Origin: Metapseudomonas boanensis
Lineage (GTDB): Bacteria; Pseudomonadota; Gammaproteobacteria; Pseudomonadales; Pseudomonadaceae
Assembly: GCF_018704125.1 (NCBI RefSeq)
Contig: NZ_JAGTIS010000012.1
Location: 62,001 to 126,000 of the forward strand
Reading direction: 5' to 3'
DNA length: 64,000 nt
In this document: piece after piece, positions 2,617 through 10,764 of the stretch
Numbering within the stretch: position 1 is the stretch's first letter
How the letters are laid out: each line of letters begins with the position of its first letter
Program-made: the position numbers and the translations under genes
The notes under the pieces: model-generated
The model's database searches: none
The model's input: only the letters and a program-made list of their open reading frames with translations
What the model was told of the DNA's origin: nothing

Positions 2617-2626
2617 ACAACAAGAA
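2617..2626 (+). promoter_or_regulatory. Hfq/Crc-type A-rich motif at the atuB start
   Basis: ACAACAAGAA runs into the atuB ATG and overlaps the ribosome-binding region. It fits the AAnAAnAA motif that Hfq with Crc binds to block translation of catabolic mRNAs in Pseudomonas. The assignment is inferred from the motif only. Confidence 0.5.
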
Positions 2627-3495
2627 TGAGCTACGACTCGGTATTCAAGCCCGGCCTGTTCGCAGGCCAGACGATCATGGTCACCGGTGGCGGCAGCGGC
2701 ATCGGCCGCTGCACCGCCCATGAGCTGGCAGCGCTGGGCGCCCACGTGGTGCTGGTGGGGCGCAAGGCGGAGAAGCTGGAAAAGACGGCAGGCGAAATCC
2801 ACGAGGACGGCGGCAGTGTCAGCTGGCAGGCTTGCGATATTCGCGACGAGGAGGCGGTGAAGGCCATGGTCGCGGCCGTACTGGCCGAGCGCGGCAGCAT
2901 CCACCACCTGGTCAACAACGCCGGCGGCCAATACCCGGCGCCGCTGGCTTCGATCAACCAGAAAGGCTTCGAGACCGTGGTTCGCACCAACCTGGTCGGC
3001 GGTTTTCTGGTGGCGCGCGAAGTGTTCAACCAGAGCATGAGCAAGACCGGCGGCAGCATCGTCAACATGCTCGCCGACATGTGGGGTGGCATGCCGGGCA
3101 TGGGCCACTCCGGCGCCGCCCGTGCCGGCATGGAGAACTTCACCAGGACCGCCGCAGTGGAATGGGGCTACGCGGGCGTGCGGGTCAACGCCGTGGCACC
3201 GGGCTGGATCGCCTCCAGCGGCATGGACACCTACGAGGGCGCCTTCAAGACCATCATCCCGACCCTGCGTGAGCATGTACCACTCAAGCGCATCGGGAGC
3301 GAATCGGAAGTCTCCGCAGCCATCGTCTTTTTGCTCTCACCCGGCGCTGCCTTCATCAGCGGCAACACCATCCGCATCGACGGAGCCGCTAGCCAAGGCA
3401 GCCGAGCTTTCCCGCTGCCAAAGGCCAAGCCCGGGCAAAACCAGGCCTACAACGGCTTCCACCGAGCCTATCTGCCCGACGTGCTGAAGGATTGA
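2626..3495 (+). CDS. atuB: AtuB, SDR protein of the enoyl/dienoyl-CoA reductase type
   Basis: 289-residue short-chain dehydrogenase/reductase. The cofactor loop TGGGSGIG is at residues 20-27 and NNAGG follows near residue 98. The usual catalytic Tyr-x3-Lys is absent: the site reads HSGAARAG, with Ser162 at the Tyr position and Arg166 at the Lys position. The same HSGAARAG pattern is known in peroxisomal trans-2-enoyl-CoA reductases, and related 2,4-dienoyl-CoA reductases also lack the Tyr. This hints at a CoA-thioester reductase rather than a citronellol dehydrogenase. It lies 4 nt before atuC, so the two are probably translated together. Its pathway step has not been assigned with certainty. 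Confidence 0.85.
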   Translation: MSYDSVFKPGLFAGQTIMVTGGGSGIGRCTAHELAALGAHVVLVGRKAEKLEKTAGEIHEDGGSVSWQACDIRDEEAVKAMVAAVLAERGSIHHLVNNAGGQYPAPLASINQKGFETVVRTNLVGGFLVAREVFNQSMSKTGGSIVNMLADMWGGMPGMGHSGAARAGMENFTRTAAVEWGYAGVRVNAVAPGWIASSGMDTYEGAFKTIIPTLREHVPLKRIGSESEVSAAIVFLLSPGAAFISGNTIRIDGAASQGSRAFPLPKAKPGQNQAYNGFHRAYLPDVLKD

Positions 3496-3499
3496 GACG

Positions 3500-5116
3500 A
3501 TGACGATCATCCAATCCGAACTGGACATCCAGGGCGACGACTTCGCCCGCAATCGCGAGGCCATGTTGGCGGCCATCGCCAGCTTCCGCGATGTGGAGCA
3601 GCGGGTGCTGGACAAGGCTAATGAGGCCAAGCCGAAGTTCCAGAAGCGTGGCCAGTTACTGCCCCGCGAGCGCCTGAACCTGCTCCTCGATCCGGGCGCG
3701 CCGTTTCTCGAACTCTGCTCACTAGCCGGCTACAAGCTACATGACGACAAGGACGGCACCCAGGCCGGCGGCGGCATCATCGCCGGCATCGGTTACATCG
3801 CTGGCGTACGCTGCCTGGTCAGTGCCAGCAACAGCGCGATCAAGGGCGGCACTATCTCCCCCACTGGGCTGAAGAAGACCTTGCGCCTGCAACAGATCGC
3901 TGTGGAAAACAAACTGCCGCTGGTGGCCCTGACCGAAAGCGGCGGCGCCAACCTCAATTACGCCGCGGAGATCTTCGTCGAGGGCGCGCGCGGCTTCGCC
4001 AACCAGGCCCGGATGTCGGCCATGGGGCTGCCGCAGATCACCGTGGTACATGGTTCCAGCACGGCGGGTGGAGCCTACCAGCCGGGTCTGTCCGATTACG
4101 TCATCGTGGTGCGCGGCAAGGCCAAGATGTTCCTCGCAGGGCCGCCATTGCTGAAGGCCGCCACGGGCGAAGTCGCCACCGATGAGGAACTCGGCGGCGC
4201 TGAAATGCACGCCCAGGTGGCCGGCACGGCCGAATACCTGGCGGAAAGCGACGCCGACGGCGTGCGCCTGGCCCGTGAAATTCTGGCCATGTTGCCGTGG
4301 AGCGCCCAGTTGCTGGAGCGCGCTCAGCGCAACTGGCGCGAACCCTTGTACCCGGCCGAAGAGCTGCTGGGCGTGGTCCCTGCCGATGCAAAGAAGCCTT
4401 ATGACGTGCGCGAGATCATCGCGCGCATCGCCGATGGTTCGGAATTCCTGGACTTCAAGCCGGAGTTCGACAACCAGACCGTCTGCGGCCACCTGCGCAT
4501 CGAGGGCCGCAGCTGCGGCCTGATCGGCAACAACGGCCCCATCACGCCGCAAGGGGCAGCCAAGGCCTCGCAGTTCATCCAGCTCTGTGACCAGGCCAAT
4601 GTGCCGCTGCTGTTCCTGCACAACACCACCGGATTCATGGTCGGCACCGCCTCGGAACAACTGGGTGTGATCAAGCACGGCTCGAAGATGATCCAGGCGG
4701 TGGCCAATGCCCGGGTGCCCAAGCTCACCGTGGTCGTCGGCGGCTCCTACGGCGCCGGCAACTACGCCATGTGCGGCCGCGGCCTCGACCCCCGCTTCAT
4801 CTTCGCCTGGCCCAACAGCCGCACCGCGGTGATGGGTGGCGCCCAGGCCGGCAAGGTGCTGCGCATCGTCACCGAGGAGAAGCACACCAAGGAAGGCAAG
4901 GAAGCCGACCCGAAGATGCTCGACATGCTGGAACAGATGACCGCGCAGAAGCTCGACAGCCAGTCCACGGCGCTCTACGGCACCGCCAATCTCTGGGACG
5001 ACGGGCTGATCGACCCGCGCGACACGCGCAGGCTACTGGGCTATCTGTTGGATATCTGTGCAGAGGCGGAAGTCCGGCCACTCAAAGGCAATACGTTCGG
5101 CGTCGCTCGGTTTTGA
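3500..5116 (+). CDS. atuC: Geranyl-CoA carboxylase, carboxyltransferase (beta) subunit
   Basis: 538-residue carboxyltransferase of the acetyl/propionyl/methylcrotonyl-CoA carboxylase beta family. It moves CO2 from biotin on AtuF to the gamma-methyl group of cis-geranyl-CoA, making isohexenylglutaconyl-CoA. Two crotonase-like halves are seen: the N-half with SASNSAIKGGTISPTGLKK and GGAYQPGLSDY, and the C-half with FLHNTTGFMVG, GGSYGAGNYAMCGRG and GGAQAGKVL. Length and motifs match the AtuC/LiuB group. Placement in the atu cluster selects geranyl-CoA over methylcrotonyl-CoA as the substrate; sequence alone would not separate them with confidence. Confidence 0.92.
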   Translation: MTIIQSELDIQGDDFARNREAMLAAIASFRDVEQRVLDKANEAKPKFQKRGQLLPRERLNLLLDPGAPFLELCSLAGYKLHDDKDGTQAGGGIIAGIGYIAGVRCLVSASNSAIKGGTISPTGLKKTLRLQQIAVENKLPLVALTESGGANLNYAAEIFVEGARGFANQARMSAMGLPQITVVHGSSTAGGAYQPGLSDYVIVVRGKAKMFLAGPPLLKAATGEVATDEELGGAEMHAQVAGTAEYLAESDADGVRLAREILAMLPWSAQLLERAQRNWREPLYPAEELLGVVPADAKKPYDVREIIARIADGSEFLDFKPEFDNQTVCGHLRIEGRSCGLIGNNGPITPQGAAKASQFIQLCDQANVPLLFLHNTTGFMVGTASEQLGVIKHGSKMIQAVANARVPKLTVVVGGSYGAGNYAMCGRGLDPRFIFAWPNSRTAVMGGAQAGKVLRIVTEEKHTKEGKEADPKMLDMLEQMTAQKLDSQSTALYGTANLWDDGLIDPRDTRRLLGYLLDICAEAEVRPLKGNTFGVARF

Positions 5117-5177: not shown

Positions 5178-5188
5178 GAACAACAAAA
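5178..5188 (+). promoter_or_regulatory. Hfq/Crc-type A-rich motif at the atuD start
   Basis: GAACAACAAAATG joins the Shine-Dalgarno AAGGAG to the atuD ATG and contains a perfect AAnAAnAA match. Such motifs mark Crc/Hfq-repressed catabolic mRNAs in Pseudomonas. Inferred from the motif. Confidence 0.55.
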
Positions 5189-6348
5189 TGATCTTCACCC
5201 AGGAACACGAAGAACTCCGCCGCACGGTGCGCAATTTCGTCGACAAGGAGATCAACCCCCATGTCGACCAGTGGGAAAAGGAAGGACGCTTCCCCATCCA
5301 CGACATTTTCAAGAAGGCCGGCGAACTGGGCCTGCTGGGCATCTCCAAGCCGGAAAAGTTCGGCGGCATGGGCCTGGACTACAGCTATTCGATCGTCGCC
5401 GCCGAGGAGTTCGGCACCATCCACTGCGGCGGCATCCCCATGGCCATTGGCGTGCAGACCGACATGTGCACCCCGGCACTGGCCCGCTTCGGCTCCGACG
5501 AACTGCGCGAGGAGTTCCTCCGCCCGGCTATCGCCGGTGAAATGGTCGGTTGCATTGGCGTGTCCGAAGTGGGCGCCGGCTCCGACGTTGCCGGGATGAA
5601 GACCACTGCCCGCAAGGAGGGTAGCGACTATGTGATCAATGGCAGCAAGATGTGGATCACCAACTCGCCCAGCGCCGACTTCATCTGCCTCCTGGCCAAC
5701 ACCTCCGACGACAAGCCCCACGTCAACAAGTCGCTGATCATGGTGCCGATGAACACCCCCGGCATCAGCCTCAGCGCGCATCTGGACAAGCTCGGCATGC
5801 GCAGTTCGGAAACCGCCCAGGTGTTCTTCGATAACGTTCGCGTGCCGCAGCGCTACCGCATCGGCCACGAAGGCGCCGGTTTCATGATGCAGATGCTGCA
5901 GTTCCAGGAGGAGCGAATGTTCGGGGCCGCCAATATCCTCAAGGGGCTGGAGCACTGCGTCGATGTCACCATCGACTACTGCAAGGAACGCAGGACCTTC
6001 GGCAACCCGCTGATCGAAAACCAGGTCATCCACTTCCGCATGGCCGAGTTGATGACCGAAATCGAATCGCTACGCGCCCTGGTCTATCAGGCAGTGGAGC
6101 TCTACGTCAGTGGCAAGGACGTCACCCGCCTTGCCTCTATGGCCAAGCTCAAGGCTGGCCGTCTGGGCCGTGAAGTCACCGACGCCTGCCTGCAGTATTG
6201 GGGCGGCATGGGCTTCATGTGGGACAACCATGTCTCCCGCGCCTACCGCGACACCCGCCTGGTGTCGATTGGTGGCGGTGCCGACGAAATCATGCTGGGC
6301 ATCATCTGCAAGCTGATGGGCATCCTGCCGGGCAAGAAGAAAGGCTGA
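5188..6348 (+). CDS. atuD: AtuD, citronellyl-CoA dehydrogenase
   Basis: 386-residue acyl-CoA dehydrogenase (FAD) expected to oxidise citronellyl-CoA to cis-geranyl-CoA and pass electrons to ETF. The ATG at 5188 follows AAGGAG and gives the family start MIFTQEHEELRRTV. Motifs include GVSEVGAGSDVAGMKT (FAD/substrate region) and RTFGNPL. The catalytic Glu of short/medium-chain enzymes (YEGT) is replaced: the site reads IGGGADEI with Gly363. Glu242 in EERMFG lies where isovaleryl-CoA dehydrogenase has its catalytic base. That fits a 3-methyl-branched substrate. The frame is open upstream inside atuC but only as a shadow. Confidence 0.9.
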   Translation: MIFTQEHEELRRTVRNFVDKEINPHVDQWEKEGRFPIHDIFKKAGELGLLGISKPEKFGGMGLDYSYSIVAAEEFGTIHCGGIPMAIGVQTDMCTPALARFGSDELREEFLRPAIAGEMVGCIGVSEVGAGSDVAGMKTTARKEGSDYVINGSKMWITNSPSADFICLLANTSDDKPHVNKSLIMVPMNTPGISLSAHLDKLGMRSSETAQVFFDNVRVPQRYRIGHEGAGFMMQMLQFQEERMFGAANILKGLEHCVDVTIDYCKERRTFGNPLIENQVIHFRMAELMTEIESLRALVYQAVELYVSGKDVTRLASMAKLKAGRLGREVTDACLQYWGGMGFMWDNHVSRAYRDTRLVSIGGGADEIMLGIICKLMGILPGKKKG

Positions 6349-7377: not shown

Positions 7378-9360
7378 ATGCCCAGCTTCAACAAAATCCT
7401 GATCGCAAACCGCGGCGAGATAGCCTGCCGCGTGTTGCGCACAGCCCAGGCGCTGGGCTACCGCACCGTGGCCGTCTACAGCGAGGCCGACTGCGATGCG
7501 CGCCATGTGCAACTGGCGGACGAGGCGGTATGCATTGGCCCTGCCCCAGTGGGCCAATCGTACCTCTCCATCGAGGCGATCATTGCCGCCGCAGGAAAGA
7601 CGGGCGCCGATGCCATCCACCCCGGCTACGGCTTCCTTTCCGAGAACGCCGGCTTTGCCCGCGCCTGCGAGGCCGCTGGCCTCACTTTCATTGGGCCAAC
7701 CGTGGAAGCCATCCACCTGATGGGCAGCAAGCGCCTATCCAAACTGGCCATGCTGGAAGCCGGGGTGCCCTGCATCCCCGGCTACGAGGGCGCCGAGCAG
7801 GACGACGCCACCTTGGCCCGCGAGGCCGAGCGCATCGGTTACCCGCTGATGATCAAGGCCAGCGACGGAGGGGGCGGGCGCGGCATGCGCCGGGTGCAGA
7901 GCGGGGATGAGCTGGCAGCGCAACTGCGCACCGCTCGTTCAGAGGCGCTCAATGCCTTCGGCAGTGCCGAGCTGATCCTGGAAAAAGCCGTGCTGCAGCC
8001 GCGCCATGTGGAGATCCAGATATTCGGCGACCAGCACGGCAACCTGATCTACCTCGGCGAGCGCGATTGCTCGGTGCAACGCCGCCACCAGAAGGTCATC
8101 GAAGAAGCGCCCTGCCCGGTCATGACCCCCGAGCTGCGCCAGGCGATGGGTGAAGCAGCAGTCAGGGCCGCGCGCACGGTGAACTACGTCGGTGCAGGCA
8201 CGGTGGAGTTCCTACTCGACGCCAATGGCGCCTTCTACTTCCTGGAAATGAACACCCGCCTGCAGGTTGAGCACCCGGTGACCGAGCTGGTGACCGGCCA
8301 GGACTTGGTGGCCTGGCAGATCAACGTGGCAGAGGGGCAACCCCTGCCGCTGCGCCAGGACGAGGTGCGTCTCGACGGTCACGCCATCGAGGTACGGCTG
8401 TATGCCGAGGTCCCAGCCGCGGGCTTCCTGCCACAGACCGGCCAGGTGCTGCGCTGGGAACCCGCTGAGCTCGATGGCATCCGCATCGATCACGGGCTGG
8501 TCGAAGGCCAGGCGGTTACCCCCTTTTACGACCCTATGCTGGCCAAGGTCATCGCCTGGGGCCGCACCCGCGACGAGGCGCGACGCAAGCTGGCGCGGGC
8601 GGTAGAAGACTGTGTGCTGCTCGGCGTGAACGGCAATCAGCGCTTCCTCGCCAATCTGCTCCGTCACCCGCACTTTGCAGCCGGCCAAGCCACCACGGCC
8701 TTCATCGACGAACAGTTCAGCGACGACCCGAGTCTGACTCCACAAGCTGTCAGCCCGGTCGAGTTGGGGGTGGCGGCCGCCCTGCTCTACCACGCTTCAG
8801 CCATGTCCACTGCCCATCAGGGCGGACTGGCTGGTTGGCGCAACGCCCGTAGCACTCCTTGGCGCTTCAGTCTGCGCCAGTGGGAACACAAGCATGAGGT
8901 CGAACTGACCGTCAGCGAGACTGGTGAGCGGCCCCGCCTGCTCGCCAAGGTTGGCAATGACGAACTCGCCATTTGCCTGAGCCAAGCCGATGGCCGCTGG
9001 GCCGTGATCGAACTGAACGGCATTCGCCGCCGTATTGCCTACCATCAACAGGCCGAGCGTCTATGGTTGTTTGGCCCAAACGGCAACCTCGAACTGCTCG
9101 ACGTGACCCACGAGCCCGCCAGCGGCCAGGCTGGCGCCAGTTCCGGCACCGTGAAGGCCCCGATGGACGGTGCCATCGTCGACGTCCTGGTGAGCGAGGG
9201 GGAACGGGTCGGTAAGGGCCAGCTGCTGGTGGTGCTGGAGGCGATGAAAATGGAGCATCCGCTCAAAGCAGGGATCGACGGCATCATCCGCTGCGTCCAG
9301 GTAATCAAGGGCGATCAGGTGAAGAGCCGCCAGCTGCTGGTGGAAATCGAGGAAGCCTAG
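7378..9360 (+). CDS. atuF: Geranyl-CoA carboxylase, biotin-carrying (alpha) subunit
   Basis: 660-residue biotin carboxylase plus biotin carrier. Residues 1-450 hold the ATP-grasp biotin carboxylase domain (KILIANRGEIACRVLRT, GYGFLSENAGFA, ASDGGGGRGMR, EMNTRLQVEHPVTE). The C-terminal carrier domain has EAMKMEHPL, with the biotinylated residue Lys624. It carboxylates biotin with ATP and bicarbonate and hands CO2 to AtuC. The middle region corresponds to the inter-domain linker typical of methylcrotonyl-CoA carboxylase alpha subunits. Substrate identity comes from the atu context. Confidence 0.93.
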   Translation: MPSFNKILIANRGEIACRVLRTAQALGYRTVAVYSEADCDARHVQLADEAVCIGPAPVGQSYLSIEAIIAAAGKTGADAIHPGYGFLSENAGFARACEAAGLTFIGPTVEAIHLMGSKRLSKLAMLEAGVPCIPGYEGAEQDDATLAREAERIGYPLMIKASDGGGGRGMRRVQSGDELAAQLRTARSEALNAFGSAELILEKAVLQPRHVEIQIFGDQHGNLIYLGERDCSVQRRHQKVIEEAPCPVMTPELRQAMGEAAVRAARTVNYVGAGTVEFLLDANGAFYFLEMNTRLQVEHPVTELVTGQDLVAWQINVAEGQPLPLRQDEVRLDGHAIEVRLYAEVPAAGFLPQTGQVLRWEPAELDGIRIDHGLVEGQAVTPFYDPMLAKVIAWGRTRDEARRKLARAVEDCVLLGVNGNQRFLANLLRHPHFAAGQATTAFIDEQFSDDPSLTPQAVSPVELGVAAALLYHASAMSTAHQGGLAGWRNARSTPWRFSLRQWEHKHEVELTVSETGERPRLLAKVGNDELAICLSQADGRWAVIELNGIRRRIAYHQQAERLWLFGPNGNLELLDVTHEPASGQAGASSGTVKAPMDGAIVDVLVSEGERVGKGQLLVVLEAMKMEHPLKAGIDGIIRCVQVIKGDQVKSRQLLVEIEEA

Positions 9361-9457: not shown

Positions 9458-10282
9458 ATGTCACTGTCCGGAAAAACCCTGTTCATCACCGGCGCCAGCC
9501 GTGGCATCGGCCGCGAGATTGCCCTGCGCGCGGCCCGGGATGGCGCCAACATCGTCATCGCGGCCAAGAGCGCCGCAGCCCATCCCAAGCTGCCCGGCAC
9601 CATATTCAGCGTTGCCGAGGAGGTCGAAGCGGCCGGCGGCAAGGCCCTCCCCCTGCAGCTGGATGTGCGCGATGAAGTTGCCGTCAAAGAGGCCATGACC
9701 AAAGCCGCCGAGCATTTCGGCGACATCGACGCCTTGGTGAACAATGCCGGCGCCATCAAGCTGATGGGTGTGGAGCACCTGGAGCCGAAGCGTTTCGACC
9801 TCATGTACCAGATCAACACCCGCGCCGTGATGGTGTGCAGCCAGGCCGCACTGCCCTTTTTGAAGAAAAGCGCCTCCGGCCACATCCTCAACCTCTCGCC
9901 GCCGCTGAATCTGGCGCCGAAATGGTTCGCCCAGCATGGCCCCTACACCGTCACCAAATACGGCATGAGCATGCTCACCCTAGGGATGAGCGAGGAGTTC
10001 AAGAGGTACGGCATCAGCGTCAACTCGCTGTGGCCGCAGACCATGATCGCCACTGCTGCCATCGAGTTCGAACTGGGCAGTCGCGATGCCTTCAAACGTG
10101 CGCGCACCCCGGCGATCATGGCTGACGCCGCCCACGCTATCCTCTCCAGCCAGGGACGCGTAATAACCGGACGCCTGTTGATCGACGAGGAGTTGCTGCG
10201 CGAGCAAGGGCAGACCGAATTCGAGCACTACCGCTTCGACCCGCAAGGAGGGTCCCTGGTGCCGGATCTATTCCTGGACTGA
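9458..10282 (+). CDS. atuG: AtuG, SDR oxidoreductase (HSDL2-like)
   Basis: 274-residue short-chain dehydrogenase with intact motifs: TGASRGIG near residue 11, NNAG near residue 95, and catalytic Tyr163-x3-Lys167 (YTVTK). It resembles the HSDL2-like branch of the superfamily. In P. aeruginosa the atu operon ends atuG-atuH; here the next gene is unrelated, so atuG is the last gene. Its role is probably an oxidation or reduction in citronellol catabolism, but the step is not proven. The ATG at 9458 follows CAGGAG; the upstream open frame is the A-rich leader. Confidence 0.87.
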   Translation: MSLSGKTLFITGASRGIGREIALRAARDGANIVIAAKSAAAHPKLPGTIFSVAEEVEAAGGKALPLQLDVRDEVAVKEAMTKAAEHFGDIDALVNNAGAIKLMGVEHLEPKRFDLMYQINTRAVMVCSQAALPFLKKSASGHILNLSPPLNLAPKWFAQHGPYTVTKYGMSMLTLGMSEEFKRYGISVNSLWPQTMIATAAIEFELGSRDAFKRARTPAIMADAAHAILSSQGRVITGRLLIDEELLREQGQTEFEHYRFDPQGGSLVPDLFLD

Positions 10283-10315
10283 AGCCGTCCCGAACACGCC
10301 GGCCATGATCTTCCT

Positions 10316-10409
10316 TGCGGGGGCGAATTCATTCGCTACGGGCTGCGCAGCGGCCCCAATGGGCACTTGGGCAGTCCTGCGGACTGCTTAGCGAATGAAT
10401 TCGCCCCCA
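10316..10409. repeat. GGGGGCGAATTCATTCGCT inverted repeat
   Basis: GGGGGCGAATTCATTCGCT (about 10318-10336) is inverted at about 10390-10409, giving a roughly 19-bp stem with a 53-nt loop. It is downstream of atuG and could cap the operon transcript. Similar GGGGCGAA ends occur at 14375-14407 and 52678-52873. The 482-nt gap 10283-10764 holds this element and the next repeat; I see no convincing gene in it. Confidence 0.8.
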
Positions 10410-10629
10410 CAAAAGCTCAACAGCAGTCCGAGCTTCCCTGCATTTGCCCATCTGCCCACCCACAGTCGCGCCACGGTCATGGCCGCCCGCCCAGCACCGT
10501 TCTAGAGCGAGCCCACGCCTGCATGCAACAACGACAATACGCGAAGACCATGAGCCAAGCCGAACTGATCTCACAGTCTTGTAACCGGAGGGGAATACGG
10601 TCTGAAGCAGGTTGAGTAAAGACTTACAA

Positions 10630-10688
10630 GGGGGACGCCGAGTTCTTGCTCGCAAAAAGGTCCGCTTCGCAAGCAAGCTCGCTCCTAC
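10630..10688. repeat. REP-like unit GGGGGACGCCGAGTTCTTGC
   Basis: The unit starting GGGGGACGCCGAGTTCTTGC ends with GCAAGCAAGCTCGCTCCTAC. An almost identical unit lies at 52736-52803 and a related inverted one at 2546-2580, so it is a dispersed family. Confidence 0.75.
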
Positions 10689-10764
10689 CAGAGATGCATC
10701 CAGTTGCAACACTTAACAGGGAAGGAGCCAATCCTTGCGCTCCCACGAGGTTTTTTCGCACCGC

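Follow-up and report, generated by a model that had tools for sequence, protein, structure and literature searches.

The window, by which we mean the whole stretch of 64,000 nucleotides of Metapseudomonas boanensis DNA analysed here, carries the genes atuA-B-C-D-E-F-G in this order, with atuR at its left edge. The genes of the cluster, all on the forward strand, are the following.

711-2489, + strand: atuA (PF07287 plus an AtuA ferredoxin-like domain); start approximate
2626-3495, + strand: atuB, a PECR-type SDR of 289 aa, orthologue of P. aeruginosa AtuB (structure 6LLN)
3500-5116, + strand: atuC, geranyl-CoA carboxylase beta subunit; diagnostic Gly162 present
5188-6348, + strand: atuD, citronellyl-CoA dehydrogenase/desaturase; name from the literature, role as listed in the table of PMC4097962
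6442-7239, + strand: atuE, isohexenylglutaconyl-CoA hydratase homologue; start approximate
7378-9360, + strand: atuF, geranyl-CoA carboxylase alpha subunit
9458-10282, + strand: atuG, PRK08278-type SDR whose Tyr-x3-Lys is intact (YTVTK); of AtuB and AtuG, the one that looks like a canonical dehydrogenase

No atuH was found 3' of atuG (window positions 10283-10712), and a partial AtuH query gave no match at E <=1e-60 in the 65 contigs of this genome; the gene is present in the loci L006, L012 and L025. The AtuB of the window is 92% identical to the copy in P. aeruginosa PA7. Its membership of the SDR superfamily is clear from two Pfam domains (PF13561, 3e-52; PF00106, 1.1e-44) and from the TGxxxGxG and NNAG motifs, and among the best 25 of 235 NCBIfam matches none passed its cut-off, the top one scoring 196 bits against the 321 needed.

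The catalytic site of AtuB was compared in two sets of orthologues. The first comprises 32 Pseudomonas rows (the window plus 31 of 80 loci, 82-100% identity), and the second comprises 52 AtuB-labelled rows drawn from two classes of the phylum, that of the window and a second one, which we guess to be the Alphaproteobacteria (40-100% identity; one of them, L109, at 40%, groups with a PECR-like side group, leaving an AtuB clade of 51). The features on which the comparison turns are these.

2683-2706, + strand: T20GGGSGIG27, Rossmann dinucleotide motif; T20 to G27 invariant in 32 rows
2758-2766, + strand: G45-R46-K47, end of strand beta-2; R46 in 52/52 AtuB rows, also in PECR and DECR
2923-2931, + strand: G100-G101-Q102; GGQ common to PECR, AGN in DECR; Q102 in 52/52 AtuB rows
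2989-2991, + strand: N122, the Asn of the SDR tetrad, retained in 52/52 AtuB rows
3073-3075, + strand: A150, aligned with the catalytic Ser of canonical SDRs; Ala in 52/52 AtuB rows and Ser in 23/23 paralogues
3106-3129, + strand: H161-S-G-A-A-R-A-G168; S162 (3109-3111) for Tyr, R166 (3121-3123) for Lys

The 289-residue reading frame contains NMLADMWGGMPGMGHSGAARAGMENF, with S162 at the Tyr position and R166 at the Lys position of the SDR dehydrogenases. Both the reading frame and the alignment thus bear out the preliminary description, which had read the Tyr-x3-Lys site as Ser162-x3-Arg166 within HSGAARAG; its statement that Tyr and Lys are lost is correct and even understated, as the catalytic Ser is gone as well (Ala150). 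The classical triad of SDR alcohol/carbonyl dehydrogenases is therefore absent from AtuB, Ser and Tyr each occurring at their positions in 0/52 rows, and the pair at 162 and 166 is S/R in 43 rows, T/R in six, N/R in two and A/R in one, never with a Tyr. In the SDR paralogues of the same genome (23 of the 26 next-closest to AtuB, three being skipped, out of 67 matches) we found instead Ser in 23/23, Lys in 23/23 and Tyr-x3-Lys in 22/23, the remaining one having His-x3-Lys. AtuG, the second SDR of the cluster, also retains its Tyr and Lys and, like the canonical SDR dehydrogenases, shares with AtuB the SDR family domains and differs from it in this site. H161, S162, G163, A165 and R166 do not vary across the 32 Pseudomonas orthologues, and local drift is thus not what shaped the site.

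The closest characterised relative of AtuB is human PECR, the peroxisomal trans-2-enoyl-CoA reductase. Among PDB chains, PECR (1YXM, E 9e-58) is the best match after 6LLN, with further matches to 3IMF (1.4e-38), DECR2 (1.2e-33) and DECR1 (2e-30). In the other direction, the best non-self chain for a PECR query is 6LLN, and in the genome of the window the same query finds AtuB first (1.9e-57; runner-up 3.2e-40), so that the two proteins, 41% identical, are reciprocal best matches. In a tree of 87 rows the AtuB clade has PECR as its sister (100/86, bootstrap not settled), and moving outward from the pair one meets a bacterial Thr-x3-Arg group, the DECR-type rows and then the canonical SDRs; a tree of 29 rows agrees (96/88). 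AU tests, with clades named after the first tree and with one PECR row and two DECR-type rows in each tree, rejected the grouping of AtuB with a canonical paralogue (p 0.0014), of AtuB with DECR (p 0.032) and of PECR with DECR (p 0.034).

The motifs point in the same direction. The preliminary description had likened HSGAARAG to the peroxisomal trans-2-enoyl-CoA reductases, and H-S/T-GAARAG is indeed common to AtuB and PECR, as are NN-x-GGQ, Ser/Thr-x3-Arg, SRK/GRK at beta-2 and a loop of 14 residues between N147 and S162. The length of this loop is 15 in DECR1 and 3IMF and 15-17 in 22/23 paralogues, one paralogue having 14. Unlike AtuB, PECR is eukaryotic and has a V at the Ser position where AtuB has A150; the active-site Tyr179 of its UniProt annotation presumably aligns with E170 of AtuB. 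A second bacterial PECR-like group (L109, L289, L290, L298-L302) has NNAGGQ[F/Y] and Thr-x3-Arg and is 35-42% identical to AtuB; the L109 gene adjoins an AtuA-like gene, with no carboxylase in 20 kb (L127).

The DECR-type reductases (DECR1, DECR2 4FC6 and 3IMF) are 29-33% identical to AtuB. DECR1 (1W6U) and the bacterial DECR-like 3IMF fall in the same wider clade and, like AtuB, have no Tyr at the canonical place; unlike AtuB, they keep the Lys, have AGN for GGQ and carry, in a loop of 15 residues, a Tyr at position 152. The catalytic Tyr and Lys of DECR, which we take to be Y199 and K214, align with M152 and R166 of AtuB. A Tyr at 152 occurs in 2/52 AtuB rows and Arg166 in 52/52, and we rejected a DECR-like reading of AtuB on these two residues, on GGQ and on the AU result (p 0.03). 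Where AtuB had been described as resembling an enoyl/dienoyl-CoA reductase, the enoyl half agrees with the PECR homology, the trees, the motifs, the Arg at beta-2 and a gene context that is mostly one of CoA thioesters, and the dienoyl half is contradicted by the residues and the AU test.

An AlphaFold2 model of AtuB built from a shallow alignment had a mean pLDDT of 64.8, with residues 150-164 below 50. With this weak model, Foldseek ranked 6LLN, the four PECR chains and DECR2, in this order, and VIA-align gave Z 24.3 for 6LLN and, in effect a tie, 22.9 for PECR (1YXM) and 22.3 for the next, many SDRs lying within 1 Z of PECR. The fold therefore adds little to the class assignment, which is decided by sequence. 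An Arg at the end of SDR strand beta-2 is the usual mark of NADP(H), and R46 of AtuB is in this place. Based on its sequence, we infer that AtuB is probably a PECR-type trans-2-enoyl-CoA reductase that uses NADPH.

Which substrate such an enzyme would meet in the atu pathway is suggested by the steps around it. PECR converts phytenoyl-CoA to phytanoyl-CoA, its substrate being itself the 3-methyl-2-enoyl-CoA of a (longer) isoprenoid acid (PMC9524157, PMC10288848). In the pathway, AtuD is listed in a review as making cis-geranyl-CoA (PMC4097962), and in the available text of PMC8637051 trans-geranyl-CoA is “isomerized” to cis-geranyl-CoA by an enzyme that is left unnamed. It was thus fair to say, as had been done for this locus, that the pathway has a step with no clear assignment. 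Since AtuD does the opposite conversion, and since reduction followed by re-oxidation would change the geometry, we favour trans-geranyl-CoA as the substrate of AtuB, at roughly even odds.

The reaction could proceed as follows. AtuB would reduce trans-geranyl-CoA, a 3-methyl-2-enoyl-CoA, to citronellyl-CoA with NADPH, the hydride passing to C3, the enolate or thioester probably being held by Q102, N122 or S162 with R166 on the cofactor, and C2 being protonated from H161, S162 or water. DECR uses an Asn and a Tyr to hold the thioester carbonyl; these positions are Q102 and M152 in AtuB, which is why we would expect Q102, N122 or S162 to serve here. The new single bond would rotate freely and the trans geometry would be erased, after which AtuD would re-oxidise citronellyl-CoA to cis-geranyl-CoA, the sole isomer that the carboxylase is thought to accept. 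Together, AtuB and AtuD would make up the missing trans-to-cis “isomerase”, at the cost of NADPH. Acyl-CoA dehydrogenases remove hydrogens anti; if AtuD does so it would give the cis product from one citronellyl enantiomer only, and AtuB would have to make that one. We place the probability of this reading as a whole, a reductase acting on trans-geranyl-CoA and feeding AtuD, at about 0.5.

The association of AtuB with AtuD was followed in genomes with a geranyl-CoA carboxylase, recognised by the Gly162 rule (PMC4673880). Among 299 genomes drawn from the phylum, AtuB was found in 21 (at least 52% identity), AtuC in 30 (at least 52%) and AtuD in 29. A draw of 289 genomes from the second class of the phylum gave AtuC in 40 (E up to 1e-157). 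Of these, four overlapped with the first draw and two were dropped (G449 and G568, 46%), and the remaining 34 were queried with AtuB and AtuD. The threshold for AtuB was 1e-50 in the first draw, where a 40% match in G169 is uncounted, and 1e-45 in the second class, where matches of 37-39% in G439 and G671 were scored as absent. Omitted from the count are AtuC matches of 46-47%, taken as methylcrotonyl-CoA carboxylase type, and G025 and G038, which have AtuB beside a carboxylase gene and come from a class draw made without an AtuC search.

Among the resulting 64 genomes whose best AtuC is of the Gly162 type, 35 have both AtuB and AtuD, one has AtuB without AtuD, 13 have AtuD without AtuB and 15 have neither. 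AtuD is thus found in 35 of the 36 carboxylase genomes with AtuB, and AtuB is absent from 15 of the 16 without AtuD. In four of the 15 genomes with neither, Gly162 is immediately preceded by a long insertion, and these four may not encode a geranyl-CoA carboxylase. The raw Fisher test for AtuB and AtuD gives p 3e-6 over the 64 genomes and p 0.001 by family (28), related genomes being counted in these values; with independent pairs, 2-3 are concordant and 0 (at times 1) discordant, p 0.5, which is too few for significance.

The genes are also retained jointly where they are not clustered. AtuB, AtuC and AtuD are kept though scattered over three contigs each in G214 and G503, and in G610 they share one contig but are about 0.5 Mb from each other. 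A run AtuB-AtuD-AtuF occurs in G490, its best AtuC being on a different contig, and the 20 kb that hold a second AtuB-AtuD pair of G468 contain no carboxylase gene. G013 has AtuB without AtuD, and in G384 and G112 AtuB has no nearby carboxylase. The presence of AtuB in all 72 Pseudomonas contigs longer than 16 kb holds by construction, these contigs having been retrieved through AtuB; in the fetched stretch of 26 of the 72, AtuG gave no match above 50%. Orthologues of AtuB with no carboxylase within the same 15-20 kb were seen in L124, L126, L115, L311 and L313. The next gene on the same strand is of the AMP-binding (acyl-CoA synthetase) type in L126 and of the enoyl-CoA hydratase family in L311, and among the neighbours of AtuB in L124 and L115 no gene of either type was recognised.

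The genomes with AtuD and without AtuB are of a particular kind. In 11 of these 13, a glutathione transferase (GST) gene lies within 6 kb of AtuC; with queries taken from that GST clade itself, a GST at 50% identity or more was found in the fetched stretches (7-20 kb) of 0/35 genomes with both AtuB and AtuD and of 0/15 with neither. All five GSTs that were scanned have GST N-terminal Pfam domains. The two exceptions, G326 and G512, have AtuD and, in the stretch, neither AtuB nor GST, and weaker GST matches occur in two genomes with AtuB (G503, 36%, beside AtuB; G690, 31%, 8 kb from the carboxylase). The raw Fisher test of AtuB against GST gives p 3e-9 over the 48 genomes with AtuD and p 0.005 by family (18), again with related genomes counted. 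In the carboxylase tree all GST clusters fall into one clade (98/94), and AtuB is present in G107 and G366, the outgroups closest to it; AtuB would therefore have been replaced once, not many times. Some members of the GST family, for instance maleylacetoacetate isomerase, are cis-trans isomerases. A tentative extension of our model, which we consider doubtful, is that AtuB and AtuD together are a two-enzyme geometric isomerase and that one lineage exchanged AtuB for a GST that isomerises directly.

More than AtuB differs in these clusters, however, as they are also without AtuA, most of them are without a close AtuE, and 8/11 have a BKACE; the whole lower route may be different there. In the three f233 genomes the close AtuD is located outside the GST cluster, in another part of the genome. 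Carboxylase clusters of the second class that have a GST, and whose 20 kb contain neither AtuA nor AtuB, were seen at L211, L212, L215, L221-L225 and L263-L265, and L211, L212, L215 and L221-L225 also have a close AtuD and a BKACE (PF05853 or a match to one). Once phylogeny is counted, the support that co-occurrence and the GST clusters give to the shunt is thin. In addition, Thauera linaloolentis degrades linalool via geraniol with a geranyl-CoA carboxylase, and the paper on it mentions AtuD in its background part only (PMC4847356). A search of this organism gave no reciprocal AtuB match, which suggests that the shunt is not the sole answer to the trans-to-cis problem.

The same residue and kinship evidence would fit a PECR-type reductase that acts on another CoA ester, either the 2,4-dienoyl-CoA that arises in the beta-oxidation tail or cis-2-enoyl-CoAs such as that of the signal DSF, which is a cis-2-enoic acid. 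We regard this as a possible, clearly less likely, reading. It is favoured by the loci where AtuB stands away from any carboxylase and beside an AMP-binding gene (L126) or an enoyl-CoA hydratase family gene (L311). It also draws on the dmgA-H genes of P. nitroreducens, an atu cluster by its 79-91% similarity, which save for dmgH are induced by DSF and whose whole deletion impairs DSF breakdown; this deletion covered the entire cluster, however, and not dmgB alone (PMC9973270). An enzyme of the tail would moreover be expected in every carboxylase genome, whereas 15 of the 16 genomes without AtuD are also without AtuB, albeit through few independent events.

In the literature, AtuB is described in quite another way. 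Together with AtuG it is listed as citronellol/citronellal dehydrogenase in a review table (PMC4097962) and given the same role in PMC4847356, and the 6LLN entry, which has the same HSGAAR site as the AtuB of the window, is titled “putative dehydrogenase involved in catabolism of citronellol”, unlike the PECR-type reading. The co-occurrence of AtuB with AtuD would be expected for such a dehydrogenase too. We nevertheless think this role improbable: Ser, Tyr and Lys are lost throughout the AtuB rows, the characterised protein closest to AtuB, PECR, is an enoyl-CoA reductase, and the role is itself putative or tentative in two of the sources (PMC9973270, which speaks of putative dehydrogenases or desaturases, and PMC4847356). 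Titles cited in the literature on the pathway hint at a PQQ alcohol dehydrogenase acting on acyclic terpenes and, for geraniol, at a molybdenum-dependent route. The code 6LLN was not found in the literature searched, and none of the papers listed, a coverage outside which the main atu genetics papers fall, names AtuB as an enoyl-CoA reductase.

Two further readings are less probable still. AtuB could be an ene-reductase on the free aldehyde, turning geranial into citronellal before CoA activation, which would bypass the trans/cis problem as well. Plant SDR ene-reductases that do without the usual role of the Tyr exist, for example isopiperitenone reductase, but the characterised neighbours in the clade, PECR and DECR, both act on CoA thioesters, and we find this reading hard to uphold. 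That AtuB is redox-dead and serves as a scaffold, or as an isomerase or hydratase without redox chemistry, might be read from the loss of the entire canonical triad, but it is the least credible option given the invariance or near-invariance of the dinucleotide motif, R46 and HSGAARAG and the activity of PECR with the same site.

In conclusion, AtuB is probably a case of misassignment in a known pathway and not a new kind of enzyme; what would be new, if true, is the shunt formed by AtuB and AtuD. The pair would then fill the unassigned trans-to-cis step in the breakdown of acyclic terpenes, and one of the two genes listed for the oxidation of citronellol and citronellal would drop out. If DmgB is PECR-like, its action as a reductase of the cis-2 bond would explain the presence of a dmg/atu-like cluster in DSF degradation. 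AtuB is a close bacterial relative of human PECR whose orthologue has a solved structure (6LLN). Long listed as an enzyme that oxidises citronellol, the alcohol of rose scent, it looks here like a PECR-type reductase instead.
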